This document shows positions 1 through 16,826 of a DNA stretch of 64,000 nucleotides, piece by piece. The first letter of the stretch is position 1. Each line of letters opens with the position of its first letter. The translations under genes and the position numbers were made by a program. The notes under the pieces are model-generated. The model was not told the origin of the DNA, made no database searches, and worked only from the letters and a program-made list of their open reading frames with translations. Location of the stretch: NCBI GenBank assembly GCA_934339135.1, contig CAKRHP010000012.1, positions 54,552 to 118,551 of the forward strand. Direction: 5' to 3'. The stretch comes from an uncultured Lachnospiraceae bacterium. GTDB taxonomy: Bacteria; Bacillota; Clostridia; Lachnospirales; Lachnospiraceae.

Positions 1-3000
1 TTTATACTAAGTTTATGCTGGCTCCGACCATTACTGTAGGTGCCGGTGTGGGCGTAGGAAAGGTTATCGGTGTGACCGTGTCAGGTACGGCAGACTTTGA
101 TTTTGGCTTTAACGTGCCAATCATGGGAGACAATGAATCCTCCGCAGGCTATGGAAATGTAACATTAAGTGCTGCATTGAAATTAAAGATACTTTTTATT
201 AAGAAAAAGTGGACCCTGTATAAGGGCGAGAAGATGAGTCTCTTTAACTATGGTGCATCCGGTGTGGGAGCGATGCTTTCTGATTTCACAGAGAATTATC
301 TCTATGAGGATATTGATGATGATTCTAACACAGAGAAATTTGCAAGAGATTACCTGAACGATCAGAGTAAATGGCAGCCGTATGATATGAGTGCCAAAGC
401 GGTAGATGCCGGCAGGGAAATTGTTCTGCAGGAGGGAGCATATCCAAATCCTCAGTCCCGGATCGTCGAGATTGGAGATGAAAAGCTGCTGGCAGTCTTT
501 CTGACGGATAAAGGCGACAGAGATGACATTAACCGCTCAGAGCTTGTATACAGTATCTCGAAAGATAACGGTGTAACCTGGTCTGTGCCGGTCAGTGTCA
601 GTGATGACGGTACATGGGATGAAGCTCCGGCTCTTTACAAGGTGGGCAATGATAAGGTGCTTGTAACCTGGTCTGATGCCAGCCGCGAGTATACGAAGGA
701 TGATGACACGAAAACAGTCCTCTCACAGCTTGATATCAGCGGAGCATGGTTTGACATTAAGACACAGAAAATGGGAGAAGAATTTGCGATCACGCAGACG
801 ACAAAAGATGAAGTGATGGCAGATACGGATCCGATGATCGCGTACGACGACGAAACAAACCGTCTGGCGGTTTATTATACCAAGACAGATTACGAGGATA
901 CCAGAAGCGAGCTTGACGAGACAGCAAAGGGAGATATTGTATCAGACGAAAATGCAGATAATGTCGAAGAAGTTACCACATATGGTGATATTATTAACGG
1001 TTACAATGTGATCGCCTGCCGTATGGGAACACTGAAAGAAGACGGCATTACCTGGGATGCAGCAGATCCGGAGCTTCCGGAGGCATATGGACAGAGATTT
1101 ATGGATCTGGGTGTCGCAGCAGTGGTATCCGAAAGTGCCATTGAAGTAAATACCGGTAAGACAGCAACGGTTGAGGATGAAAACGGAGATATGGTGGAGC
1201 GTCCGGTTACAGAGACAAGAACCGTAACCGATCTGATAGTTGACGAAAACAGCGATCCCCGTGTGGTTGATTCCGACAGCATTTCTTACAATGGTCTGTC
1301 CATATATGCGTACACCATTGACCGGGATGCAAATCTGGAAACCGCAAATGATCAGCAGCTTTATATGCAGATCTATAACTTTGAGGAGGATACCTTCCAT
1401 CATCCGATCCAGATCACGGCAGATGCAATGCAGACAGCAAAACCGCAGTTTGTACGCTGCAAGGGAATGACGTATTTATACTGGCTCCATGGTGGAGATA
1501 TCCAGTATCTCAATGTCAGTGACGTGGTTTCTTCCCTGAATACCGAAAACAGTTATCTGGAAAAGAAGCAGGTGACAATGAAGGATCAGACCACAAGGGA
1601 AGTTTATGTTCTAAATAAGTATAAGAATGATCCGGTCATAACAGCGATCCGGCACAGATCTGAGACAGATGCGGAGGGCAATGTAACGGAAGACAGGATC
1701 AGTGATTATGATGTGCAGGCAAATGATACCAGTATGTATGTTCTCTGGAGTGAGATAGACACCTCTGTAAAGGATAAGGAAAAAACAGGGGCGGCAAATA
1801 CCATCCGAGAGACACAGCTTTACGGAGCATATTGTGAGCCGATGCAGGAAAAAACAGAGAAACTCTTTACATTTGAGGATACGGATGAAGTGACGTATCA
1901 GTTTACAGAAGGAAAAGATAACACCACATATCCGGTAAGCTTTACGGCTAAGAAGGATCTGACTCTGGAAGACGGGTCTACGCTGTCAGAGGGAGATGTA
2001 TATAAGATTGATTACAGTAAGGAGGATGACCTCAATGGTCAGACTGGTGTCGTAAAGGCAGGAGATCCGGCAAAGGTGAAGTCGATCCGGTCATGTGACG
2101 GATATAACTGGTCTGAACCGGTACAGATCACGGATGGTAAGGGAGCCAATTATACAGATGTTTCCTTCCGGGTCAATGAGGACGGATGGATGCAGGCAAT
2201 GTTTGCAAAGGGACAGCAGAAGCTTAATGACAACAATGTATTTGAGGAGGACGAAGCAGCAAAGGCTCTTTGTGTACAGAACTTTGTAGTAACGAGTGAA
2301 CTTGTATGTGGCAAAATTACCACAGACAAGGAGCTTTACGCCCCAAATGAGAGTATTGCATTTACTCTTGATGTCACCAATGACGGACTGAAGCCGGTTA
2401 CAGGTGCGCAGTATCGCATGTACCTGAAAAATGGAGATCAGATCCTCGGAGACGAGCCGGAATGGTCAGCTCTGGGGGATGTCAAAAAGGCAGATGATCA
2501 GGGGGTATTTCTGGGAGGAAATACCATTACACTCAGTGGAAATGGTGATCTGAATGTAGACAAAATTGGCGATACAACAATTGTTGTAGAAGTGAAACAA
2601 GGTGACAAAACAGAAACGTTGGAAAAGAAACTGGAGGAAAAAGAAGTATTAAGTATTCAGATAAACAATGCACAGCTTCTGGATGCAGAGACGGCCTCTG
2701 TCAATCTGCAGATTGCCAATAACGGCAACAAAGATTTCAAGGGAGACCTGCAGATTATGGACGGCGAGAATGTTCTTGTGGAAGAAAAGGCTTATGAAAT
2801 TCCGTATGGGGAAAGCAAAAGCCTGGAGAAGAATATTGACATCAGCAAATGCAGATTTGGGGATGTCATGGTACAGGAAGATGGCAGCCGGAAGGATGCG
2901 GTCACTCTGACAGCGGGATATGGAGATATCAGACAGCAGTTTGAGGTAACCAGAGAGGTATCCGGATGGGAAGGAATTGCGGCAGATGCCGTAAAGAATA

Positions 3001-3944
3001 TCAGCATTGGCCAATACGAGATCACAAAGGAGAGTGCTTCTGCTGATCAGAGCGTTCTCGATACGATCAGTTCTGTACAGCCGTTAAAGAAAGTAGATGG
3101 GACATTGGAAATGACAGAGGACCAGATTATGAAACTGGATACCATTTACGATGTGGATGATACGGATGGTCCCGGAAAGGATCTGAAGAAAGTCGGACTG
3201 GATGCAAAGGGAATTTTGAATACAGACTGGTCTGTATCGGATGACAGCGTCGCATATGTGGATGAAAACGGAGTTCTCGTTCCATTAAAAGAGGGCGAGG
3301 TCAGCGTGACGGCTAAGACGTATCCTGGTGGGGAAATGACGGAAGCCGATCCGTTTGTTCCGTCAGGAATCGAGGGAGAAAATAACGAAGACTTTGGTAC
3401 GCTGGTTAAGACCGAAGGAGAAGGATGGTTCCGAAAAGACAGAGCGATGTATCAGGTGCCGGAGAGTCTGATCCGGACTACGACGGTTAAAGTGAAAGTC
3501 ACAAAGGGAGCCGCAAAGCCGACGGAAACACCGGAAGTCACAGCGACAACGACACCGACAGAAACACCAACGGCAGCACCGGGTGGGACTCCTTCGGCTC
3601 AGCCGGGAGAAACCTCAACGGCAGCACCGGAAGTAACCCGAAAACCGGGAAAAACTTTGGCGAAGAAGACAACGCTGAAGGTAACCCTTCATAAAAATGG
3701 TGACAAAGTAACAGTGCAGTCTCTGCCGAAGGCAAAGATCACGACGGTTGTTTATAAGAATAAAAAGACAGCAGCGAAGGGAAAGAAATCAGGAATCCTT
3801 CAAAAATATGCAGTGGTTAAAACCAACAAAAAGGGTAAGATCACGATCAGACTAAAGAAAAAATTGAAAAAGAAACAGGCTGTCCGGGTAACTGCTGTGA
3901 AGAAGCCTTACAAGCAAAAGACAGTGGTCAAAGTGAAAAAATAA
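1..3944 (+). CDS. large secreted multidomain protein with Asp-box, CARDB-like and Ig-like modules (5' partial)
   Basis: The frame is open to the left edge (codons read Y-T-K-F before the first ATG at 15), so the N-terminus and any signal peptide lie outside. About 1313 residues are visible. An Asp-box (S-K-D-N-G-V-T-W, near 555-580) and a second one-like motif (near 2090-2120) suggest a sialidase-type beta-propeller. They are followed by a CARDB-like module (about 2320-2620), another Ig-like stretch (about 2640-2990), a segment like bacterial Ig-like group 2 (about 3220-3330), a Thr/Pro linker (about 3520-3640) and a strongly basic Lys-rich terminal module (about 3650-3941). The last module resembles the end of the neighbouring protease. 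Inferred: an extracellular, wall-associated protein. No enzymatic activity can be assigned; the Asp-box alone does not prove a glycosidase. Confidence 0.75.
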   Translation, partial: YTKFMLAPTITVGAGVGVGKVIGVTVSGTADFDFGFNVPIMGDNESSAGYGNVTLSAALKLKILFIKKKWTLYKGEKMSLFNYGASGVGAMLSDFTENYLYEDIDDDSNTEKFARDYLNDQSKWQPYDMSAKAVDAGREIVLQEGAYPNPQSRIVEIGDEKLLAVFLTDKGDRDDINRSELVYSISKDNGVTWSVPVSVSDDGTWDEAPALYKVGNDKVLVTWSDASREYTKDDDTKTVLSQLDISGAWFDIKTQKMGEEFAITQTTKDEVMADTDPMIAYDDETNRLAVYYTKTDYEDTRSELDETAKGDIVSDENADNVEEVTTYGDIINGYNVIACRMGTLKEDGITWDAADPELPEAYGQRFMDLGVAAVVSESAIEVNTGKTATVEDENGDMVERPVTETRTVTDLIVDENSDPRVVDSDSISYNGLSIYAYTIDRDANLETANDQQLYMQIYNFEEDTFHHPIQITADAMQTAKPQFVRCKGMTYLYWLHGGDIQYLNVSDVVSSLNTENSYLEKKQVTMKDQTTREVYVLNKYKNDPVITAIRHRSETDAEGNVTEDRISDYDVQANDTSMYVLWSEIDTSVKDKEKTGAANTIRETQLYGAYCEPMQEKTEKLFTFEDTDEVTYQFTEGKDNTTYPVSFTAKKDLTLEDGSTLSEGDVYKIDYSKEDDLNGQTGVVKAGDPAKVKSIRSCDGYNWSEPVQITDGKGANYTDVSFRVNEDGWMQAMFAKGQQKLNDNNVFEEDEAAKALCVQNFVVTSELVCGKITTDKELYAPNESIAFTLDVTNDGLKPVTGAQYRMYLKNGDQILGDEPEWSALGDVKKADDQGVFLGGNTITLSGNGDLNVDKIGDTTIVVEVKQGDKTETLEKKLEEKEVLSIQINNAQLLDAETASVNLQIANNGNKDFKGDLQIMDGENVLVEEKAYEIPYGESKSLEKNIDISKCRFGDVMVQEDGSRKDAVTLTAGYGDIRQQFEVTREVSGWEGIAADAVKNISIGQYEITKESASADQSVLDTISSVQPLKKVDGTLEMTEDQIMKLDTIYDVDDTDGPGKDLKKVGLDAKGILNTDWSVSDDSVAYVDENGVLVPLKEGEVSVTAKTYPGGEMTEADPFVPSGIEGENNEDFGTLVKTEGEGWFRKDRAMYQVPESLIRTTTVKVKVTKGAAKPTETPEVTATTTPTETPTAAPGGTPSAQPGETSTAAPEVTRKPGKTLAKKTTLKVTLHKNGDKVTVQSLPKAKITTVVYKNKKTAAKGKKSGILQKYAVVKTNKKGKITIRLKKKLKKKQAVRVTAVKKPYKQKTVVKVKK

Positions 3945-4014: not shown

Positions 4015-4035
4015 TGACAGGAAGGAATGTTGGAG

Positions 4036-6084
4036 ATGGGGAAAAAAACAATAAGGCAAAAACGAAAAAAGTCATTTTATAGGATGCTTATGATGACAGA
4101 ACTGCTGGTTACGGTTGTTACAGGAGGTATTCTGCTTCCCGGGAGGGCAGAAGCAGCCATACCGTCTCAGTGGTATGAAGGGGAAGAAGGATTGACAGCA
4201 GCCTGTGATGCGGCGGAAGGAATCGTGATCGCTGTGATTGATACCGGTGTTGATATGAATCATACTGCATTGCGTAACTGTCTGTGGGTGAATGAAGCGG
4301 AGCAGAATGGGAAGGAGGGGGAGGATGATGACGGAAACGGCTTTGTCGATGATGTGCATGGTTACAATATCTGGGGTGGAAATAGTGATATTACGGATTC
4401 GGATGGGCATGGAACGCATGTGACGGGAATTCTTGGAATGCAGACTGAGCAGGGGAGAAATTTTGGTTATGGGGCGCATATCATGATCGTAAAGGCAGGA
4501 AACAGCCGGAATGGATTCTCTGCAGAAAATTGTGTAAAAGCCATACAGTATGCCGTGCAAAACGGAGCCGATGTCATCACGATGTCCCTTGGGGGCGATT
4601 ATCTGGATACAAAACTGGAAAAAGCCATTCACGAAGCATCCCGCAAAACGGTGATCGTGGCGGCGGCGGGAAATGAAAGTGCGGCAACCGGTGAGTCCGG
4701 TTTTTCGGACTCTGCCAATACATTTCCGGCGGGACTTTCTGATGTGCTCGGCGTCATGGCGTATGACAGCGACAGGGAGCTGGCGTGGTTTTCCAACTGG
4801 GATTATGCCCCGGGGACGGCAGTGGACTATGAGGTGGCAGCACCGGGGGTAGACATATATTCGACGTGGCCGGGTGACCGGTTTCAGAAACAGTCGGGTA
4901 CCTCTATGGCGGCCCCGATTGCAGCCGGAGCCTGTGGGGCATTGGTGAGGAAATGGAAAGAAAATGGAAAATATGAGCCGTCAGCTATGATAGGCCAGCT
5001 GGTATTTACGGCAGATCAGTTTGTCAGGCTGACGGATCAAAAGGGAGAAGTTCATTCATTCCCAAGGATCAATCTGGAAAATGCATTGGAGACCACGCCA
5101 CAGCCCCGACTGCATATCCGGAACATAACGGCAGATGACAGTATAAAGTGGGGGAGGGGCAATGAAAAAGACGGAATTCCACGGAAGGGAGAAAGCTTTC
5201 AGCTTCCCATGGAAATTTTTAATCTGTGGGTCGGAGCGGAAGATATCCGGTTATGTGTTGCGACAGACAATGAGTATGTTGCTGTCAAGCTGCCGGAGCA
5301 AAGCATGGAGTCTCTGGCGGGCAGAGCATCTATGAGGACAACCGATGAACAAAATGCAGTCATTACTTTTTCGGATCATATGGAAAAGGGACAGAGTGTC
5401 TGTCTGGACATTACATTGCGTTACAGAAACGGGTACACAGAAGATGGAAAAGAATATATTACAACAGGAAAGCTTTTGTTGAAGGAAGGGGAAAAGGAGA
5501 TTCTGTACTGCGAGGAGCAGTTTGGACAGGAGCCGCTTCCGGAGTTAAATCCGGAGGTATCAGAGACCCCGGAACCGGAAATAACCCCGGAGGTATCAGA
5601 GACCCCGGAACCGGACATAATCCCGGAGGTATCAGGGACCCCGGAACCGGACATAATCCCGGAGGTATCAGGGACCCCGGAACCGGACATAATCCCGGAG
5701 GTATCAGAGACCCCGGAACCGAGAATAATCCCGGAAGTATCAGGGACCCCGGAACCGGAAATAACCCCGGTGATGCAGGGAACGCAGAAGTCTGTGACAA
5801 AAACGGCGAAAAAACGGAAGCGTATTCTGGTGAAGAAAAATGCGAAAAGACTTATCGTTATCACAGAAGCAAAAGCAAAAATAATTGTAAAGATCTATCC
5901 TAAAAATAGGACAGAAAACAGAAAACAAAAAGGAAGAAGATATTATATTTATCAGGGAAAAGCAGATAAAAACGGAAGATACGTGTTGAAAACAGGAAGG
6001 ATAAAAAAGAAATGCATCATAGAGGTGCGGGTATGTAAAAAAGGAAAAACAGCAGCAATTCAGAAATGGAGATTATCATGTTAA
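4036..6084 (+). CDS. secreted subtilisin-like serine protease (peptidase S8)
   Basis: Peptidase S8 with the full catalytic set. Counting from ATG 4036: Asp69 (A-V-I-D-T-G), His125 (D-G-H-G-T-H-V), oxyanion Asn213 (A-A-G-N-E) and Ser290 (G-T-S-M-A-A-P). A basic N-terminus, hydrophobic stretch and A-E-A-A site form a Sec signal peptide. ATG 4036 is chosen because GAAGGA lies 9 bases upstream; ATG 4027 almost touches it. After the catalytic domain come about 200 residues of beta-rich sequence, six 12-residue P-E-V-S-x-T-P-E-P repeats and a Lys/Arg-rich terminal module. No long propeptide precedes the catalytic Asp. It is first in a compact operon with a peptide exporter, so a role in maturing exported products or surface proteins is plausible but inferred. 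Confidence 0.92.
   Translation: MGKKTIRQKRKKSFYRMLMMTELLVTVVTGGILLPGRAEAAIPSQWYEGEEGLTAACDAAEGIVIAVIDTGVDMNHTALRNCLWVNEAEQNGKEGEDDDGNGFVDDVHGYNIWGGNSDITDSDGHGTHVTGILGMQTEQGRNFGYGAHIMIVKAGNSRNGFSAENCVKAIQYAVQNGADVITMSLGGDYLDTKLEKAIHEASRKTVIVAAAGNESAATGESGFSDSANTFPAGLSDVLGVMAYDSDRELAWFSNWDYAPGTAVDYEVAAPGVDIYSTWPGDRFQKQSGTSMAAPIAAGACGALVRKWKENGKYEPSAMIGQLVFTADQFVRLTDQKGEVHSFPRINLENALETTPQPRLHIRNITADDSIKWGRGNEKDGIPRKGESFQLPMEIFNLWVGAEDIRLCVATDNEYVAVKLPEQSMESLAGRASMRTTDEQNAVITFSDHMEKGQSVCLDITLRYRNGYTEDGKEYITTGKLLLKEGEKEILYCEEQFGQEPLPELNPEVSETPEPEITPEVSETPEPDIIPEVSGTPEPDIIPEVSGTPEPDIIPEVSETPEPRIIPEVSGTPEPEITPVMQGTQKSVTKTAKKRKRILVKKNAKRLIVITEAKAKIIVKIYPKNRTENRKQKGRRYYIYQGKADKNGRYVLKTGRIKKKCIIEVRVCKKGKTAAIQKWRLSC
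5551..5766 (+). repeat. six tandem 36-bp units encoding a TPEP-type linker
   Basis: Six in-phase 36-base units begin at 5551, 5587, 5623, 5659, 5695 and 5731, each coding 12 residues (P-E-V-S-[E/G]-T-P-E-P-x-I-x). Units differ at only a few positions, which points to recent expansion. It is a spacer between the protease and its basic C-terminal module. Confidence 0.95.
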
Positions 6085-7475
6085 CAGATATCAGAAGCTT
6101 ATTAACAGAAAATAATATTGATCCGGCAGAGACGGTATACGCAGAACTTCCTGCAAAAATTACGGAATATCCCATTACTATTGGAGACTTTAATACGATC
6201 GTTTCCGGTGCGGAAACGGTGGAACAATTTTCCGGACTGCTCGATGGCAAAGAACATTTTTTTGCAAAACTTGATACCATCACGGAATATGCCGGATGTG
6301 AAGAGCAGATCAAAAAACTGACAAAAACGCTGAAAACAAAGGATACTTCCGGTCAGATCCTTGATTGGGAGGAAAGGATAAAATTAAAGCAGGAGAAAAA
6401 GCAGCTGGGAAAAAGGAAGAAAGAGATTATCCGGAAACTGGAGGAAGAAATGGTGGAGGAATATGGATTTGATTTTCGAAAAAGGAAAGCGATCATCTAT
6501 AAAAATACTGTTTATTTTTCCTGGTTTGATGATCTGCAGAAGATGTTTCCTATGCTGGCCAAGATCCGGACAGAAGATATCCGGCAGATTCCTCTCTTTG
6601 TTTCACATCTGGAAAAACTCAGAGAGGCGGTTGATCGTAAGGAGACGGTCGGATTTGTTGGAGGACCGTGCCTGTTTGGGGTTGACGAGGTATTGATAGA
6701 ATTTCAGACAGAAGATGGACAGACAGAAATTTTTGACTGCAGCTGCGGACGGCGGTGTCTGGCACAGGCCGCCATATGGGGAGGGGAAAGCATAGAGGAT
6801 TACCTGGCAGATAAAGGAGAAAAAATCTGTTCTTTTCGCTTTTTAAACCGTAAAACAGGAGTCACAAGACAGGAATATGACAGTATCCGTTATTTGTTTG
6901 CCACGGCAGAGGTGTTTCATGGGAAAATTGTGATCCCATTGCCGGATCTGTCCTATTTTAAATACATGGAGAAATCTTTATGTAAGCTTTCGGAGTTTAT
7001 GGTCAAAAGGATCATGAGTGAATTCCGCCGGGAATGTTATTGTATTACAGACAAATATGTCCGGGTGATCGGGGAGATCGCACGGGAATATCCACAGATT
7101 GAATACACGGTGGTGCATCACCGGAACAGGGAATTGTGCCGGTTGTTTGAGCAGTGCAGAGAAAAGTATATCAAGGACTCGTCCTATATGCAGAAGATTA
7201 CCGGCAGAGATCAGAAGAAAGAGGCGGTTGTGGATTATATTACAATGCTGGCACTGCCTTATTATATCTACGGGACATCGTATGTGGTGCAGGTAGACAG
7301 TGTAGATGAAACCGATTCCGGCAGGAAATGTAATAAAATTCACGGACAGGATATGGAATTGATCCAGATTTTATATCCGGAGTATTTGAGCAGTGATGGG
7401 AAACATACAATATATAATACGTCTTTGGAACATAAAGATTATCTGGAAATGGAGGAACGAATTGAAAAAATATAA
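6078..7475 (+). CDS. uncharacterised 465-residue cytoplasmic protein
   Basis: I do not recognise this family. ATG 6078 has GGAG 6 bases upstream and overlaps the protease stop by 7 bases, implying translational coupling; ATG 6066 lacks a site. No signal peptide or membrane segment is visible. Residues about 75-135 are very rich in Lys and Glu and probably form a coiled coil. A cysteine cluster (D-C-S-C-G-R-R-C) lies in the middle (near 6738-6760), followed by a mixed alpha/beta C-terminal half with several aromatic residues. The position between protease and exporter suggests a cytoplasmic accessory of the same system, but nothing in the sequence assigns an activity. Confidence 0.8.
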   Translation: MLTDIRSLLTENNIDPAETVYAELPAKITEYPITIGDFNTIVSGAETVEQFSGLLDGKEHFFAKLDTITEYAGCEEQIKKLTKTLKTKDTSGQILDWEERIKLKQEKKQLGKRKKEIIRKLEEEMVEEYGFDFRKRKAIIYKNTVYFSWFDDLQKMFPMLAKIRTEDIRQIPLFVSHLEKLREAVDRKETVGFVGGPCLFGVDEVLIEFQTEDGQTEIFDCSCGRRCLAQAAIWGGESIEDYLADKGEKICSFRFLNRKTGVTRQEYDSIRYLFATAEVFHGKIVIPLPDLSYFKYMEKSLCKLSEFMVKRIMSEFRRECYCITDKYVRVIGEIAREYPQIEYTVVHHRNRELCRLFEQCREKYIKDSSYMQKITGRDQKKEAVVDYITMLALPYYIYGTSYVVQVDSVDETDSGRKCNKIHGQDMELIQILYPEYLSSDGKHTIYNTSLEHKDYLEMEERIEKI

Positions 7476-8629: not shown

Positions 8630-9544
8630 ATGAAACAGGGACTTTTTCAGGAAAAAGCAGTGGAAAGCCTGGCAGCACCGGAACAGCTGGATCAAAGGAT
8701 ACGGATCATTCCATCCGGCGGGTGGATCATATTTGCAGCTGTTGTGGTCGGAGTGGCGGCGGCTCTTTTGTGGGCATTTTTGGGGACAGTGTCCAGTGGA
8801 GCCGATTATCAGGGCGTTGTTTTTGACTATAATGATGTATTAAGTGTGCGGACACAGCAGGATGGTCTGCTTCGGGATGTACTGGTGGAAGAAGGCGATC
8901 AGGTTTCGCGGGGAGATATTATTGCCGTCATAAACAGCGAGGAATCCCTGCAGCAGATCAGTTACCTGAGAAAACAGCAGAAACGCTATTCAAAGGGATC
9001 AGAGGAATATCAAAAAATAGAAGAAGAGGTGCGAAGCTATCAGGCAGGATATATGCTGCGAAGCACTGTAGATGGAGTAGTGCAGAAAATATTGCTTTCC
9101 GGACAGGCCGTGAAGAAGGGGGATGCAGCGGCAGTCATTGTACCGCAGGATGAATACAGTTACCAGGAGGTATACATTTATGTGCCTAAGGAGGAGATCG
9201 GTGCATTGGCGATCGGTATGGAGGCGCAGATCACTCCCTCTTATGTCATGCGGGAGGAATATGGATATGTAGAGGGAGTGATCTCTCATATTGACGACAA
9301 TATCGTGACAGAAAATCATATCATAAAGCACATGGGAACGATGGATTATGTAGAGAAACTGCTTCCGTCCCAAAATTGTGTAGAAGTGACTATACAGCTC
9401 AGTGTCCGTGAAAACGGACAGGGAGGATATGTCTGGTCTAACCCGAAGGGGGAGGCACTTCGTATTAAATCCGGTGACCGGTGTAAAGTTCGCATCATCA
9501 AACAGGAATATCATCCTTATGAATTGATCATAAAAGAAATGTAA
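8630..9544 (+). CDS. HlyD-type secretion adaptor, NHLM-like
   Basis: A 304-residue membrane fusion protein. One transmembrane helix (about residues 28-50, G-W-I-I-F-A-A-V-V-V) leads to a split biotinyl-lipoyl-like domain (V-L-V-E-E-G-D-Q-V-S-R-G-D) with a short helical hairpin, then a beta-barrel. The strong site AAAGGAGG precedes ATG 8630. In NHLM peptide-export loci an HlyD-family protein of this kind sits beside two ABC proteins, exactly as here (11 and 12 bases between genes). It would connect the exporters to the outside of the membrane. The hairpin is short, as expected for a Gram-positive cell with no outer-membrane partner. Confidence 0.85.
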   Translation: MKQGLFQEKAVESLAAPEQLDQRIRIIPSGGWIIFAAVVVGVAAALLWAFLGTVSSGADYQGVVFDYNDVLSVRTQQDGLLRDVLVEEGDQVSRGDIIAVINSEESLQQISYLRKQQKRYSKGSEEYQKIEEEVRSYQAGYMLRSTVDGVVQKILLSGQAVKKGDAAAVIVPQDEYSYQEVYIYVPKEEIGALAIGMEAQITPSYVMREEYGYVEGVISHIDDNIVTENHIIKHMGTMDYVEKLLPSQNCVEVTIQLSVRENGQGGYVWSNPKGEALRIKSGDRCKVRIIKQEYHPYELIIKEM

Positions 9545-9555
9545 CGGAGGCGGAT

Positions 9556-11709
9556 ATGAGAAAGATAAAAAAAGTACCCGTGATCCTTCAGATGGAGGCA
9601 GTGGAATGTGGAGCCGCTTCGCTGACCATGATCCTGGGATATTATAAAAAATATATTCCATTGGAAAAGATGCGGATTGAATGTAATGTGACCAGAGACG
9701 GAAGCTCCGCAAAATACATTATGAAGGCAGCCATGCGTAACGGACTGGAGGCAAAGGCCTACAAAATAAATCCGGAGCAGATCCGGCAGAGGGAAGATTT
9801 TCCCATGATCATCCACTGGAACTTTAATCATTTTGTGGTTCTTTGCGGTTTTGATAGGGAATATGCGGTGATCAATGATCCTGCTTCCGGAAGGATCCGG
9901 GTGGAACCGGATGTTTTTGACCGGTCATTTACCGGTATTGCCATGTGTTTCCGGCCTGGAGAAGATTTTTTGACGGGAGGAAAACCTGCAACCGGCAGAA
10001 ACTTTCTGGGGCAGGAACTCGCCCGGATGAAACCGGCATTGTTTTTTGTGACGGTACTGGGGGTTATCTACAGCCTGATCCAGATATTGTCACCGGTATT
10101 CTATAAGATTTTTACCGACCGGATCCTTTTGGGAGGGGCACCGGAGTGGATGGAGCCGTTGATGCTTATCATGCTGGCGGCAGCAGCGGCTCTTTTGGTC
10201 AGTGGATGTCTGAAAAATCTGGTTTTGCAAAAGATGATGGCGAGATTCCGGATCCGTAATGCCTCCCGGTTTTTCTGGAAGCTCCTTCGTCTTCCTATGT
10301 CTTTTTTTGACCAGCGTTTTAGTGGAGACATTGTATCTCGGGAGGAAAATAATGAGGAGATTGCTGCTATTTTATTTCAGAGGGTTGTCCCATCGGTAAT
10401 GGATCTGGTGCTGGTGTGTTGTCTGATACTTTTAATGTTTCTTTTAGATCCCCGGATGGCGGGAATAGTGCTGGCGGCGGGAGTCCTGCAGCTGTTATGC
10501 ATACTGGTATTGACGGAAAATTACGGAAACTTAAGCCGTGGACTTGGACGGGATGGAGGAAAATTATCCGGGATCAAGCTTTCGGGGATTTCCATGATCG
10601 AAACAGTAAAAGCCAGCGGGGCAGAAAGAGGGATTGTCGAAAAAATACTGGGTTGTCAGGCAAAGTATGATAATGCGGCTCTGAAAATGACATCCGGCAG
10701 GATCTATCTGGAAATTCTACCGGCACTTCTGGCAGGAATCTGTAACGGATTAATTCTGATCCTTGGCATACAGGCTGTGTTTCAGGGGAGGCAGACCATC
10801 GGTACGCTTGTTGCGTTTCAGGCATTCCTGCAGTTGTTTTTTTCTCCCATGGCATCCCTGACGGGATGTATTCAGGCGATGCAGGAGATGAAGGGAAGTA
10901 TTGAGCGTGTTCAGGATGTTTTGGAATATGAAGAAGAGATAGATGAAGCAAAGATATTTCGCAGGGAACAGGCAGGAAAAGAGCGGCTGGAAGGAAAGAT
11001 TGATATGAGAAATATCACGTTTGGCTATAGTCCTGCAGCAGATCCGTTGATCAGGGATTTTCAAATGCATGCAGAACCCGGGCAGGTGATCGCCCTGGTG
11101 GGAGGCAGTGGAAGTGGAAAATCTACGCTGGCAAAGCTGCTATGCGGTTTATATCCATGCAGTTCCGGGGGGATTTTTTATGATGATATACCCCTGGCAG
11201 AACTGGATCATTATCTTTTTCGTTCTTCGGTGGCAGTGGTGGATCAGAATATATCATTGTTTGGAGGAACCATACTGGACAATATCACCATGTGGAATGA
11301 AGAGATCAGCATGGAAAAGGTGGTGGAGGCCTGTAAGGATGCCTGCATTCATCAGGATATTCTCATGAGAAAGGATGGGTACGGGTATGAGATCAGCGAA
11401 GGGGGTTCCGATTTTTCAGGCGGACAGAGGCAGCGGCTGGAGATTGCCAGGGCATTTGTTATGGATCCGGCGGTCATGATCCTCGATGAGGCAACCTCTG
11501 CACTGGATGTGATGACAGAGCATAAGATCATGGATGCGGTCCGTAAAAGGGGACTTACCTGTATTATTATTGCCCACCGGTTATCAACGATCCGTGATGC
11601 AGATGAGATCATTATGCTGGAGCGTGGTGTAGTGAAGGAAAGAGGAACCCATGAGGAATTGATGAAGCAGAAGGGTGCTTATGCGGCACTGCTGCAGTCG
11701 GATCAGTGA
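9556..11709 (+). CDS. C39 peptidase / ABC exporter with double-glycine leader peptidase (NHLM ABC1-like)
   Basis: A 717-residue three-domain exporter. The N-terminal C39 peptidase carries Gln12, catalytic Cys18 (V-E-C-G-A-A-S), His92 (N-H-F-V-V-L) and Asp108 (N-D-P-A-S-G). A six-helix ABC membrane domain spans about residues 155-450. The ATPase shows Walker A near 516 (G-G-S-G-S-G-K-S-T), the signature S-G-G-Q-R-Q-R-L near 621, Walker B I-L-D-E-A-T near 640 and the switch His in I-A-H-R-L-S-T. C39 exporters cut leader peptides after a Gly-Gly type site while exporting the core. All key residues are intact, so it should be active. No substrate peptide with such a leader is visible in the window. 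Confidence 0.93.
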   Translation: MRKIKKVPVILQMEAVECGAASLTMILGYYKKYIPLEKMRIECNVTRDGSSAKYIMKAAMRNGLEAKAYKINPEQIRQREDFPMIIHWNFNHFVVLCGFDREYAVINDPASGRIRVEPDVFDRSFTGIAMCFRPGEDFLTGGKPATGRNFLGQELARMKPALFFVTVLGVIYSLIQILSPVFYKIFTDRILLGGAPEWMEPLMLIMLAAAAALLVSGCLKNLVLQKMMARFRIRNASRFFWKLLRLPMSFFDQRFSGDIVSREENNEEIAAILFQRVVPSVMDLVLVCCLILLMFLLDPRMAGIVLAAGVLQLLCILVLTENYGNLSRGLGRDGGKLSGIKLSGISMIETVKASGAERGIVEKILGCQAKYDNAALKMTSGRIYLEILPALLAGICNGLILILGIQAVFQGRQTIGTLVAFQAFLQLFFSPMASLTGCIQAMQEMKGSIERVQDVLEYEEEIDEAKIFRREQAGKERLEGKIDMRNITFGYSPAADPLIRDFQMHAEPGQVIALVGGSGSGKSTLAKLLCGLYPCSSGGIFYDDIPLAELDHYLFRSSVAVVDQNISLFGGTILDNITMWNEEISMEKVVEACKDACIHQDILMRKDGYGYEISEGGSDFSGGQRQRLEIARAFVMDPAVMILDEATSALDVMTEHKIMDAVRKRGLTCIIIAHRLSTIRDADEIIMLERGVVKERGTHEELMKQKGAYAALLQSDQ

Positions 11710-11721
11710 AAGGAGAAGGGT

Positions 11722-13857
11722 TTGGATCAGATAGAAAAGAAAAGGGAACGGGAGAGGAGAATGCTTCAGGAATCCTGTCTGCAGTTGTATGATCTGCTGG
11801 AAAGTGACAAAGAAACAGTGGGAGGCACGGTACAGAGGGAGCAGGAGCAGATCCGGCGGGCACTGCAGTATTTTCGTATGCCGGAAAAGGGATCTGTGGC
11901 AGAGATGAAGCAGGAAACCGTAGAACAAATGCTTCACCGGAGTGGCCTGTTTACAAGAAGGATTACTCTGGACGGTGCATGGTGGAAAGAGGCATCGGTG
12001 CCGGTCCTGCTTATGGATGAGGAAGGGATGCAGTATGTGGCGGTTCCCTCCGGAGGGAGAAGGTATGGCATCTGGAAGAATGGAAAAGAGCAGCTGCTGA
12101 ATTCCAAAAATGCGGCAAGCTTTCGGAACACAGCATATTGTCTTTATAAACCATTTCCATCGGATCAAAAGGGGATGAAAATGGTATGGCGTTTTTTGTG
12201 GGAAAGCATTTCTCTGCGGGATCTGTTTGTGATCTTGGGGATCAGTCTGTTGGTAGAGTTATGCGGCATGATCCTGCCATATATTAACAGCGTTGTGTAT
12301 AATACGGTCATTCCTTCCGGGACATCCAGGCAGATTCCGGGAATCGTGGTGCTTGTGATCAGTACGGTGTTCTTTTCTGCTTTGATCTCATTATATAAAG
12401 AAATATCCGTGGCGCGGATTGGAGAAAAAATGAAAACAGCAGGACAGAGTGCTGTCTGGTGGCGTCTGATGCAGCTTCCGGTATCCTTTTTTAAGAGATA
12501 TGATTCGGGAGAATTATATCAGCGGGCCGATGCGATAGACGATATCTGCAGGACGATTGGAGGCAGGATGCTGCCATCTGTTCTGACGGCAGCTTTGTCC
12601 GTTATATATCTGTTTCAGGTGTCCTTTTTTGCGGATTCGCTGTTATTGCCATCTGTGGTGATCATTTTGGTACAGATGGTCAATATCATGCTGACCGGGA
12701 TCTGGCAGATACGTCTCCGGGAAAAAGAAAATAAAGTACATACGCAGGTGACAAGCATTTCATTTCAGTTGATCCAAGGAATTCAGAAAATAAAAACGGC
12801 AGGAGTGCAGATCCCGGCGTTTAGAAGATGGTCAGAGGCATGGAAGAATATGCCGGTCATGGGCCATCCCTGGATCACGATCTCACCTGTCATTGGAAAG
12901 GTCATAGCGCTGGGAGGGAGCATTGCATTATATTGTATTGCATGGAAAAGCGAGATATCCGCCTCCGATTATATTGCGTTTCAGACAGCATTTTCTTCCT
13001 TTGTAGTATCGATCATGATGCTGGCAGACTTTGGATTTCAGTTTGGAAGCCTGAAGCCGGCGGTGGATATGTTACGTCCTCTGATGGAGGAAGAGCCGGA
13101 GCTTTATGAGGATCGGGAATATGTAGAAAAACTGGCGGGAAACATTGAACTTAACCAGGTTCGTTTCCGCTATATACCGGATATGCCTTATGTTCTGGAT
13201 GGTCTCAATCTGCAGATCCGGGCAGGGGAATACCTTGGAATTGTGGGAGAATCCGGCTGCGGCAAGTCCACATTGATGCGTATTCTCCTTGGTTTTGAAA
13301 CGCCGGAAACAGGTTCTGTTTATTTTGATGGGCGGGATCTGGGGCAACTTGATCTTCCTTCTCTGCGGCGTCAGATCGGAGTAGTACTGCAGGATGGAAA
13401 ATTATTTGCCGGTGATATTTTTGACAATATTGCGATCTGTGCTCCTTGGCTTACCATAGATGAGGCATGGGAAGTGGCAGAACGGGCAGGTTTTGCACAG
13501 GATATCCGTCAGATGCCCATGGGAATGTTTACTGTGATCTCTGAGGACGGGGGTGGGATTTCCGGCGGACAGAGGCAGCGGCTGCTGATCGCCAGGGCAC
13601 TTGCCGGTGATCCGGGCGTTCTTTTGTTTGATGAAGCCACGTCGGCACTGGACAATGAAACTCAGTCGAAAGTAGTGGATACCTTGAAAAATATGGATTG
13701 CACTCGTCTGGTGATCGCACATCGTCTGTCCACGATCCGGGACTGTGACAGGATCATTTATCTGGAGCATGGACGGGTGGCGGAACAGGGAAACTACAAA
13801 GAACTAATGGAAAAAAATGGGAAATTTGCAAAAATGGCACAGCGCCAGCTTTTGTAG
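11722..13857 (+). CDS. second ABC exporter with soluble N-terminal domain (NHLM ABC2-like)
   Basis: A 711-residue protein starting at TTG 11722 (AAGGAG 7 bases upstream). About 150 soluble N-terminal residues, including a segment with G-A-W-W-K and P-V-L-L-M-D, resemble the domain found in the second ABC protein of NHLM systems. Then follow ABC membrane helices and an ATPase with Walker A near 509 (G-E-S-G-C-G-K-S-T), signature S-G-G-Q-R-Q-R-L and Walker B L-F-D-E-A-T-S-A-L-D. It has no C39 peptidase, so it probably pairs with the upstream C39 exporter. The NHLM assignment of the N-terminal domain is by eye and should be tested with family profiles. Confidence 0.85.
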   Translation: MDQIEKKRERERRMLQESCLQLYDLLESDKETVGGTVQREQEQIRRALQYFRMPEKGSVAEMKQETVEQMLHRSGLFTRRITLDGAWWKEASVPVLLMDEEGMQYVAVPSGGRRYGIWKNGKEQLLNSKNAASFRNTAYCLYKPFPSDQKGMKMVWRFLWESISLRDLFVILGISLLVELCGMILPYINSVVYNTVIPSGTSRQIPGIVVLVISTVFFSALISLYKEISVARIGEKMKTAGQSAVWWRLMQLPVSFFKRYDSGELYQRADAIDDICRTIGGRMLPSVLTAALSVIYLFQVSFFADSLLLPSVVIILVQMVNIMLTGIWQIRLREKENKVHTQVTSISFQLIQGIQKIKTAGVQIPAFRRWSEAWKNMPVMGHPWITISPVIGKVIALGGSIALYCIAWKSEISASDYIAFQTAFSSFVVSIMMLADFGFQFGSLKPAVDMLRPLMEEEPELYEDREYVEKLAGNIELNQVRFRYIPDMPYVLDGLNLQIRAGEYLGIVGESGCGKSTLMRILLGFETPETGSVYFDGRDLGQLDLPSLRRQIGVVLQDGKLFAGDIFDNIAICAPWLTIDEAWEVAERAGFAQDIRQMPMGMFTVISEDGGGISGGQRQRLLIARALAGDPGVLLFDEATSALDNETQSKVVDTLKNMDCTRLVIAHRLSTIRDCDRIIYLEHGRVAEQGNYKELMEKNGKFAKMAQRQLL

Positions 13858-13874: not shown

Positions 13875-16826
13875 ATGTTTTCAGCTTTTAGAAGATTGGA
13901 AATGAAACAAAAGGATGCCTTTATTTTACTGGTGGCATTTCTGCTGTTTCTTGTGGGAATATTGTTATGGTGGTTTTTTCCACAGACCGCTTCGTGGAAA
14001 AAAACGATTGAAAATCCGTATTTTGCCACGAGGGACCATCAGGGAAACCACTATATTATCAATAACGGAAAAAGTGAAGTGCTCAGGATATCCAAAGAGA
14101 ACCTGATCACAGCAGATATATCGTGGAACAATCATGAGGAGGATTGTTTTGGAGAAGCGGACGAGGCAGCAGTGGACAGGGACGGCAATATTTATATACT
14201 CGATGTCCTTTGGAATGATACCGGGCTCGGACTGGCGATGGAGCGCGTTCTGCGTTATACTCCCGATGGAAAATTTGACCGGGTTGTATTTGAAAATGAT
14301 TATTCCGAAACCATGATCACCAAACGTCATTTATTTTCTCTTGTATGTGTCAACGATGAGATCCGTTTTGCGGCTGTTGATACGGACGGAAAAGGGTTTT
14401 CGACATATGTACTGAAAAAGGGACAGAACCAGGCGGAGCAGTTTACATCATTTGCGTGGGAAAGCGCAGTTGAGATTCAGGATTTTGCTCTGGATCAGGA
14501 CAGGGGGTACTTTGTAATTAAAAACGGAACGATCTATTCCTTTGGCGATGCCGGGATCAAGGTGGTATATCAGGTGGCGGACAGAGAATATATGCTTCCG
14601 TACAGCTTATCCTGTCAGAAAGGGGAGCTTTATTTTTCAGATATCTGCAATCAGGCGGTCTACAGAATGAGGGGAGACCGGGCAGAGCTTTTATATGGAA
14701 AGGAAGATTTTGAAAAGCTTACCTCCCGCAAGACGGAACAGGATATTTTAGAAACCATCAATGTCACCGGAAACGGGGAAGCGCAGATTTTATCGGTCAC
14801 CTGGAACAGTGGAGTGACAGAGATCGATATGGAAAGCAGCCGGAATGTCAGTCCGTCTGTTACGAACAGGTACACGCCGGTATCCCGTATGCTTTTTTTC
14901 CTTCGATATATTTGTTTTGGAGTGGCCGGTCTGACGGCTGTTTATTATCTGGCTGTTTTAATGAAATATCTGATCGTTTCCCGCACATTGGTCAAAAAGA
15001 AATTTACGATTTTTATGATACTGGGGGTCAGCATTTCCGCGATGGTTGTCATGATGAGCATGCTTCGGAGATTTAAGGAAAACTATGTGCAGGAGCAGAT
15101 CAGCAGCATGTGTACCGTGACCCAGATCGCATCCGAGATCATGGATGTGTCTGCGTTGAAGCATGTAACGTATCCGTCGGATTATGGTTCCGCAGATTAC
15201 CGGAAGCTGCAGGACTGTATGAATGATCTCATCGATATGACCAGCGAGTACAGCGAAAATTTATATTGTAATATTGTCAAGGTGTCGGGAGACAGAGCTT
15301 ATGCGCTGGCGTATCTTGACAACTCCGTGGGGGCTTATTTTCCATTGGACGAAAGCGAGGCGGCAGAGGCAAAGAAGGTATACAGGACAGGAGAGAAGCT
15401 GATCAATGACGGAAAACAGGACGCAACGGGTTCCTATGTTTATGTAAAGACTCCGGTAAAGGATCGGAATGGAAAGGTGGCCGGCATCATAGAGATCGGT
15501 ATGGTGTCGGATACTCTGTCAGGAATGATCGATTCCATGAAAACCAAGATTATGGTAGAGATCGCGTTGATGGTCATTATTGCGGTATTTATTCTTAATG
15601 AATGTCTGGCGTTTATTGAGGATCGTAAGGAATGGATCCACAAAAGAAAAAGAGGAGGGAAAAATTGTTTTCCTGTCCCATATCTGAGGATCATGACATT
15701 TTTCGTATTTGCGGCATATAATATGCCCACCAGTTTTCTGCCGGTGTATATTGAGAAGTTTTACCGGGAGAGTTTTCCGATCTCGAAGGAACTGGCGGGC
15801 TCCCTGCCTCTTACTGTTAATTTTGCCATGATAGGGATCATTTCCCTGTTCTGTACGGGCCTTTTGAGGAGATTCGGGTTTCGGATCGTCATGACGGCAG
15901 GGGCGCTGTGTTGTGGCATGGGAGAGCTTTCCATGGCACTGGCGGAAAATTATGCCATGGTTCTGGCAGGCCTGATCCTGGGAGGCATGGGATGCGGTCT
16001 GGTTATGAATGGTCTGTCCATTATTGTGGCAAACCAGAATGGAGAAGACCAGACAAAGGGATTTTCGGTGATCAATGGTGCCATATTATCCGGAATGATC
16101 TGCGGCACTGTTATTGGTGCAACTCTGGCGGAAAATCTGGGAGAATCAAGGATGTTTTTCTTCTCGGCAATGATCTGGGTAAGCATGCTGATTTTGATCT
16201 TTGTCACAGGCGGGGTCTTTCATATGTCCGGAGAAAAGGGGGAAAAGCATACGGGGAAGCTTGCCTTTTTGTTCTCCGGTTCCGTGCTTGGTTATCTGCT
16301 TCTGGTGGTGATCCCTTATGTGATCATTAACGGATTTACCAGCTATTTTCTGCCGGTCTTTGGTGACAGTTACGGTCTCAGTGAGTCGCAGACCAGTCTT
16401 TTACTTGTCATGAATTGCCTGGTGGGAATTTTCCTCAGCGAAGCATTGACAAATCTTACCATGAAATATCTGGGAAGAGGCGCTATTTATCTGTCCGGAG
16501 CTCTTTCTCTGGGAGCGGTGCTTCTGTTTGGATATTTTCAGAATCTGACGATGCTGGCACTTACGCTGTTTCTTTTGGGAGCTTCCAAAAGCTTTGGTGC
16601 GGCGGGGCGGGAAATCCTGTTTTGCAGACAGCCTGTGGTGGCACAATACGGAGAGGATGAAGCCATGGGGTATTATAATCTGGCGGACAATCTGGGAGAA
16701 TCCATTGGAACCATGGTGTTTGGCGGAATGCTCAGCATAGGGCTGGTGACAGGTATGTGGATCTTTACGGGGATCTCTGCCGTGACCCTTGGTATATATA
16801 CATTGATGGGTAAGCAAAAGAAATAA
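13875..16826 (+). CDS. beta-propeller / Cache / MFS fusion membrane protein
   Basis: A 983-residue protein with an unusual domain order: a transmembrane helix (about 14-36); an extracellular region of NHL/propeller-like repeats (about 45-320, with D-R-D-G-N-I-Y-I-L-D); two helices (about 340-365 and 376-397); an extracellular single-Cache-like domain (about 397-555, with the G-x-V-A-G-I-I-E-I-G signature); another helix (about 559-580); then a complete MFS transporter of about 12 helices (about 602-983). GAGGTGA precedes ATG 13875, 17 bases after the ABC gene, so it belongs to the export operon. Cache domains bind small ligands in sensor proteins; joined to a transporter this suggests ligand-gated transport. 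The ligand and cargo are unknown. The reading frame is continuous, so the fusion is not an obvious assembly artefact. Confidence 0.88.
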   Translation: MFSAFRRLEMKQKDAFILLVAFLLFLVGILLWWFFPQTASWKKTIENPYFATRDHQGNHYIINNGKSEVLRISKENLITADISWNNHEEDCFGEADEAAVDRDGNIYILDVLWNDTGLGLAMERVLRYTPDGKFDRVVFENDYSETMITKRHLFSLVCVNDEIRFAAVDTDGKGFSTYVLKKGQNQAEQFTSFAWESAVEIQDFALDQDRGYFVIKNGTIYSFGDAGIKVVYQVADREYMLPYSLSCQKGELYFSDICNQAVYRMRGDRAELLYGKEDFEKLTSRKTEQDILETINVTGNGEAQILSVTWNSGVTEIDMESSRNVSPSVTNRYTPVSRMLFFLRYICFGVAGLTAVYYLAVLMKYLIVSRTLVKKKFTIFMILGVSISAMVVMMSMLRRFKENYVQEQISSMCTVTQIASEIMDVSALKHVTYPSDYGSADYRKLQDCMNDLIDMTSEYSENLYCNIVKVSGDRAYALAYLDNSVGAYFPLDESEAAEAKKVYRTGEKLINDGKQDATGSYVYVKTPVKDRNGKVAGIIEIGMVSDTLSGMIDSMKTKIMVEIALMVIIAVFILNECLAFIEDRKEWIHKRKRGGKNCFPVPYLRIMTFFVFAAYNMPTSFLPVYIEKFYRESFPISKELAGSLPLTVNFAMIGIISLFCTGLLRRFGFRIVMTAGALCCGMGELSMALAENYAMVLAGLILGGMGCGLVMNGLSIIVANQNGEDQTKGFSVINGAILSGMICGTVIGATLAENLGESRMFFFSAMIWVSMLILIFVTGGVFHMSGEKGEKHTGKLAFLFSGSVLGYLLLVVIPYVIINGFTSYFLPVFGDSYGLSESQTSLLLVMNCLVGIFLSEALTNLTMKYLGRGAIYLSGALSLGAVLLFGYFQNLTMLALTLFLLGASKSFGAAGREILFCRQPVVAQYGEDEAMGYYNLADNLGESIGTMVFGGMLSIGLVTGMWIFTGISAVTLGIYTLMGKQKK

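Follow-up and report, generated by a model that had tools for sequence, protein, structure and literature searches.

A conserved propeller–Cache–MFS protein from a Lachnospiraceae bacterium as a candidate receptor of a multi-gene signalling module

What is the role of a protein that joins two putative sensory domains to a complete transporter fold? The question is raised by an open reading frame in a 64,000-nucleotide stretch of DNA from an uncultured Lachnospiraceae bacterium (contig CAKRHP010000012.1; the whole stretch is hereafter called the window). A sequence-only reading had described its product as a propeller-like region, a Cache domain and a full major facilitator superfamily (MFS) transporter in one frame, had treated it as self-contained, and had suggested that it could be a ligand-gated transporter or a receptor for the state of transport. 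Its neighbours suggest instead that this propeller–Cache–MFS protein (PCM) belongs to a module of several genes. We give a probability of roughly one half to the reading that PCM is the membrane receptor or transceptor of a signalling module that also comprises a protein termed C6066 and a phosphatase switch. The PCM gene is tightly linked to the C6066 gene and, outside the clade of the window, usually to a gene for a membrane-bound SpoIIE phosphatase.

One chain, conserved across loci

The PCM gene and the predicted parts of its product, with residues in amino acids (aa), are as follows.

13875..16826, + strand: PCM, 983 aa, about 16 predicted membrane helices
13908..13976, + strand: N-terminal membrane helix, residues 12-34 (helix in the AlphaFold2 model, hydrophobic by reading)
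13998..14873, + strand: six-bladed NHL-type beta-propeller, residues 42-333 (strand pattern, PknD and Pizza profile matches)
14877..15140, + strand: two long helices, residues 335-368 and 376-422 (AlphaFold2 secondary structure)
15147..15506, + strand: putative single Cache domain, CitA-like (sCache_3_2), residues 425-544 (weak profile matches, fold elements)
15507..15656, + strand: long helix, residues 545-594 (AlphaFold2 secondary structure)
15675..16814, + strand: DHA1-like MFS domain of 12 helices, residues 601-980 (another residue in place of the motif A Asp)

Scanning 84,980 species genomes gave 47 loci, which with L111, L112 and the window make up 50 close loci. Sixteen more distant propeller–Cache matches were checked; eleven carried an MFS domain (L097-L107, the outer group) and five carried HAMP. 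Four of 17 fetched regions (L108, L109, L110 and L113) repeated L001, L002, L004 and L008 and were dropped, and the G297 module was not counted among the loci. Three pairs of near-copy rows (L010/L013, L019/L022 and L025/L041) are not independent.

The chain was encoded in a single frame at 45 of the 50 close loci and at all 11 MFS-bearing outer loci, and isolate or strain records are among them (L018, L019, L022, L029 and L042). The five close exceptions are two genes cut by a contig start (L028 and L046), a frame of 818 aa that is incomplete at the N-terminal end and lies 272 bases from a contig start (L015), a remnant (L044) and a gene broken into three frames (L045). The fusion is conserved and not an assembly accident. 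The idea that it is an assembly artefact, or a recent fusion limited to one lineage, has nothing in its favour except that most of the sources are metagenome assemblies; with 56/61 loci in one frame, isolates included, we consider it refuted and its residual probability negligible. The same count speaks against the pattern, raised in the sequence-only reading, of separate genes elsewhere and a fusion in one assembly only. That reading had placed the junctions near residues 320-400 and 580-602, and in an alignment of 55 PCM sequences (L032 left out) the junction residues E576, P600 and R605 were kept in 55, 53 and 55 rows, respectively.

The individual domains mostly bore out their first description. 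The propeller-like region is a predicted six-bladed NHL-type propeller: the PCM family profile matched the solved NHL propellers of PknD (1rwi; 7e-07) and Pizza7H (4.5e-12), and the AlphaFold2 model has six groups of about four strands each in this region. The MFS_1 profile scored 75.3 bits, above its curated cut-off of 33.4, and the model keeps the twelve-helix DHA1 fold in two halves. The claim of a Cache domain between the two fared less evenly. Predicted secondary structure fits a CitA-like Cache, with an N-terminal helix, a central sheet and flanking membrane helices, but profile matches were weak: PF17203 (sCache_3_2) scored 26.6 bits (7e-06) against a curated cut-off of 28.4, the precomputed PF17203 assignment was present in 3/23 homologues, and the family profile matched CitA at 0.0076 over this part. 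The propeller and Cache are probably extracytoplasmic and presumably bind a ligand; the helices at 335-368 and 376-422 would re-cross the membrane, and the helix at 545-594 may lead back to the cytoplasm. PCM had no PADLOC match at 1e-05, and neither had C6066.

The Asp of motif A, between MFS helices 2 and 3, is important for transport. It occurred in 0/55 rows of the alignment (column matched by hand), with Arg or Lys in its place in 47. Many glycines of the MFS helices, together with the polar residues R605, N616, Y824, E837 and N939, were kept in 49-55 of the 55 rows. Mean identity in the close group was 42% for the MFS part, 43% for the Cache part and 31% for the propeller, so the MFS part is as conserved as the Cache part, which argues that it is under selection. 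On these alignments, MFS conservation and the missing Asp would fit a switch and an unusual transporter alike and do not decide between them.

The propeller–Cache front end also occurs with other outputs. Used alone, with no bias towards MFS fusions, its profile at E 0.001 matched in 53/299 and 31/391 genomes, mostly over short stretches. Two matches carried HAMP–Guanylate_cyc (L086 85-2904, 68 bits; L121 1018-3768, 55 bits) and one HAMP–HD_5 (L122 1314-3815, 43 bits). HAMP also followed the front end in L088 and L089, both cut by the end of the fetched region, and L124 is a Cache histidine kinase. Because the front end is fused elsewhere to HAMP–cyclase or HAMP–HD, the MFS part of PCM occupies the usual position of an output domain.

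Partner genes: C6066 and the phosphatase

The closest partner of PCM is encoded upstream of it in the window.

6066..7475, + strand: C6066, 469 aa, TrpRS/TyrRS-like predicted fold (start possibly 6078)

C6066 accompanies the PCM gene in every close locus with a long enough flank, which rules out a reading of PCM as a single-gene system. It has no Pfam or NCBIfam assignment. Its predicted structure resembles the catalytic-domain fold of class I aminoacyl-tRNA synthetases (aaRS), with archaeal TrpRS as the best fold match; read by eye, the sequence has other residues at the HIGH site, and what follows is too short for an anticodon-binding domain. Among 145 C6066 sequences (140 of them distinct; 25 from locus rows and 120 from the listed part of 152 proteins), none had KMSKS and two had a strict HxGH, while a looser pattern occurred in six, wherever located in the fold. 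Profiles of bacterial TrpRS and TyrRS (four sequences each) did not match C6066, in comparisons that left out archaeal TrpRS, the best fold match; the score against human TrpRS, 19.7, lay within the 10.0-22.4 range of 12 shuffles. By these sequence comparisons, C6066 is an unnamed family with no significant similarity to class I synthetases. Cyclodipeptide synthases have the aaRS fold too; none was among the 24 families listed at E 5 for 25 C6066 members, and their absence from the best 50 fold matches of C6066 excludes nothing. A match to phage Mu Gp48 (0.0046, residues 73-128, 1/25 members) was rejected, as was a C6066–receptor fusion at L032 (1340-aa frame), where C6066 sits in another frame.

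A SpoIIE phosphatase gene lay within 2 kb of the PCM gene in 37/50 close and 9/11 outer loci. L022, from the culturable bacterium [Clostridium] aminophilum DSM 10710, has PCM, C6066 and the phosphatase together. We counted with a phosphatase-only model, with Pfam confirmation in a sample, because the sensory half of the phosphatase is common to other outputs. An initial count of 41/50 close loci fell to 37 since two of the genes encode HD_5 (L003 and L009) and two are cut ahead of the phosphatase part (L026 and L033). Six of the 13 close loci without the phosphatase form the window clade (the window, L001-L004 and L009). Among the others, four are cut (L026, L031, L033 and L047) and L044 is the remnant; no SpoIIE phosphatase was found within about 10 kb on either side at L011 or in 4.4 kb, downstream only, at L032. 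Proteins with this sensory half carry HD_5 outputs at L003 4803-6929 and L009 13015-15162 and a GGDEF output at L034 9407-10774, where the GGDEF protein is an additional neighbour.

STAS and RsbW-like genes lie nearby in a minority of loci (families checked in L018). At L043 6949-8694, a MATE-like protein has a C-terminal part that resembles an RsbW-type ATPase by eye, a second fusion of transporter and signalling parts by the same module. An LPG_synthase_C-like (MprF-type) gene lies near PCM in seven of the 11 outer loci (L097-L101, L106 and L107; the L100 match is weak), and PF09924, the MprF-type C-terminal domain, matched the two outer proteins scanned at 1.4e-16 and 1.8e-18. L031 and L037 hold both C6066 and an LPG_synthase_C-like gene. 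These two alternative partners presumably point to aminoacyl chemistry or sensing.

Exporters and injection machines near the module

The remaining genes considered in the window lie upstream of PCM.

4027..6084, + strand: S8 subtilase (PF00082, 3.9e-42), overlapping the start of C6066
7393..8601, + strand: substrate-binding protein, Peripla_BP_6 (PF13458, 2.1e-25), with an N-terminal hydrophobic stretch; start probably about 7462
8630..9544, + strand: NHLP/NHLM exporter HlyD-like adaptor (TIGR03794, 162.1 bits against a cut-off of 156.2)
9556..11709, + strand: NHLP/NHLM-like exporter ABC1 with C39 peptidase (TIGR03796, 851.5 bits against 853.3)
11722..13857, + strand: NHLP/NHLM-like exporter ABC2 (TIGR03797, 686.1 bits against 709.4)

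The substrate-binding protein and exporter genes thus sit between C6066 and PCM; against the three NHLP/NHLM models, the adaptor scored above the cut-off and ABC1 and ABC2 below. With the phosphatase slot empty and exporter genes in this position, the module of the window probably serves or controls that exporter. A promoter scan of the window returned 27 sites (shuffles, 21.4) and a terminator scan 26 (shuffles, 11.0); most fell within genes and none directly after 16826, and no operon end was found. The subtilase contains repeats of a SGTPEPDIIPEV-like linker and is rich in Lys at its C-terminal end; its homologues occur close to the module in L001, L004 and L009. A protein of at least 1309 aa at 3-3944, in a frame open at the left edge of the window, also ends in a Lys-rich tail, which is common to large proteins beside NHLM-type exporters (61% over 80 aa in L108, 53% over 74 aa in L100) and is possibly an export or anchoring tail.

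NHLM-type exporters adjoin PCM in the window clade, in L033 (ABC2 short, 628.8 bits), in L100 (ABC1, 859.1, and HlyD, 163, above the cut-off; ABC2, 706.4, marginally below) and loosely in L043, where scores of 606 and 468 bits are well below it; the label of a nearby NHLM exporter is loose for L043 and L021. Contractile-injection genes lie about 2.4 kb upstream in nine close loci (Pvc16_N and DUF4280 checked in L008, Tail_P2_I in L042), and related genes occur in three outer loci. A family without a Pfam match is encoded between the injection genes and C6066 at L042 7480-8574 and in L005, L007, L008, L010, L013, L014, L016 and L045; the L042 protein is weakly Pycsar cyclase-like (4.5e-06). On a tree of 56 receptors, built by a quick method with long branches flagged, the injection label requires 7 changes, against a mean of 10.2 in shuffles, and the exporter label 6, against 8.4; starred branches force at least 7 and at least 5. 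All these figures are inflated, since loci whose flanks are short, L006 and L012 among them, were labelled as having neither. Still, each label is found among close and outer loci alike, which favours a recurrent functional tie, although in a minority of loci.

A receptor, a transporter or both

If PCM is the receptor or transceptor of such a module, its propeller and Cache would lie on the outer side of the membrane and recognise a ligand, probably a peptide or a small molecule that resembles an amino acid. Once bound, the ligand would shift the MFS conformation, with the result either of gated solute movement or of a transporter fold working as a signal switch. C6066 may be the cytosolic amino-acid-binding partner, having lost tRNA charging. 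The outcome would set the activity of the phosphatase on a STAS protein by partner switching, and this in turn would control linked functions, among them the adjacent export or contractile-injection genes in several lineages.

Several observations weigh against this reading. PCM itself lacks a cytosolic output domain. No SpoIIE gene lies near PCM at the window, L001, L002 or L004, and HD_5 takes the phosphatase slot at L003 and L009. In the L009 genome a related phosphatase (L114, 486 bits) is encoded away from the operon, and the genome of L001, the nearest relative of the window, has two SpoIIE matches, neither of the module type. C6066 was present in 0/11 outer loci with the same PCM chain, and so is not essential to the architecture. 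Its aaRS fold is a prediction from a modelled structure, and profile searches gave no match. Export or injection genes lie near PCM in a minority of loci, 17/50 close (L021 and L043 loosely) and 4/11 outer.

It may be that PCM is a plain transporter for an amino-acid-derived product. An aminoacylated compound or lipid would then come from, or be handled by, C6066 or, in the outer group, the LPG_synthase_C protein; the MFS part would export or flip it, and the propeller and Cache would provide feedback control. The resemblance of both partners to aminoacyl-tRNA-related enzymes (C6066 by predicted fold, LPG_synthase_C by family PF09924), their joint presence in L031 and L037 and an MFS part conserved on a par with the Cache all suit this idea. 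However, ordinary aminoacyl activation is doubtful for C6066, which lacks KMSKS in 145/145 and a strict HxGH in 143/145 sequences, the motif A Asp is replaced throughout the alignment, and the linkage to phosphatase, STAS and RsbW-like genes would be left unexplained. We regard a plain transporter as possible but rather unlikely. A pure receptor, with the MFS part a dead transporter that acts as a membrane scaffold or output switch only, would account for the loss of that Asp (Arg or Lys in most rows) and for the homologues with HAMP–cyclase or HAMP–HD in the MFS position. It sits poorly with the retained DHA1 fold of the model and with the conserved glycines and polar residues of the MFS helices, and we judge it unlikely.

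Parts of PCM and of the receptor module resemble known systems. PknD likewise has an NHL propeller beside a membrane helix, and it has a cytosolic Ser/Thr kinase; in PCM the Cache and MFS domains come after the propeller. In sensor kinases of the CitA/DpiB type a single Cache lies between membrane helices, as is predicted for PCM, but PCM has no kinase. The phosphatase beside PCM in most loci, and STAS and RsbW-like genes in a minority, recall RsbU/SpoIIE partner-switching modules, from which the present one differs by the added PCM and C6066 and, in the window operon, by the missing phosphatase. Unlike DHA1 transporters such as NorA, SotB and VMAT2, PCM has a large N-terminal sensory extension and lacks the motif A Asp; C6066 is set apart from TrpRS/TyrRS class I synthetases by the lack of significant sequence similarity and of KMSKS. 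The HlyD, ABC1 and ABC2 proteins of the window, like those of L100, best match NHLP/NHLM bacteriocin exporter models, but the window operon adds a substrate-binding protein, C6066 and PCM, and two of its three scores are below the cut-off.

The nearest published concept that we found is the transceptor CbrA. In CbrA and the SLC5/STAC histidine kinases, a single polypeptide has both a transporter fold and a part in signalling (PMC13022988, PMC7096432). The SLC5 transporter of CbrA is fused to a histidine kinase, whereas PCM joins an MFS domain to two probably extracellular sensory domains, with the likely output enzyme encoded by a separate gene. A 2016 survey of Cache domains (PMC4822843) lists kinases, chemoreceptors, cyclases, phosphatases and others as outputs, and the terms transporter, MFS and major facilitator occur 0 times in its main text; a term search of PMC12088040 likewise gave 0 uses for MFS, transporter and Cache. 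The open-licence literature, the scope of our search (subscription papers lay outside it), yielded, as judged by match counts and titles, no description of the propeller–Cache–MFS architecture or of C6066. PCM would thus be a case of transporter-linked sensing, a known concept, with an architecture and an unnamed partner family for which that literature held no description.

Few known proteins both transport and signal. The natural swaps described here, in which one sensor is joined to an MFS, cyclase or HD output, make it directly testable whether a transporter fold can serve as a signal output, and the unnamed family with the predicted aaRS fold may be an example of a synthetase that has become a sensor. 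More tentatively, a non-charging protein derived from a tRNA synthetase could sense amino acids inside the cell for a propeller–Cache–MFS transceptor, the two jointly driving a phosphatase switch over the making or firing of contractile injection machines or of peptide or protein exporters; this would be a new signalling class, although we consider it doubtful at present. The recurrent association with export and injection genes hints at what these bacteria, mostly from the gut, may control through PCM, and the family suggests a still unstudied mode of small-molecule sensing.
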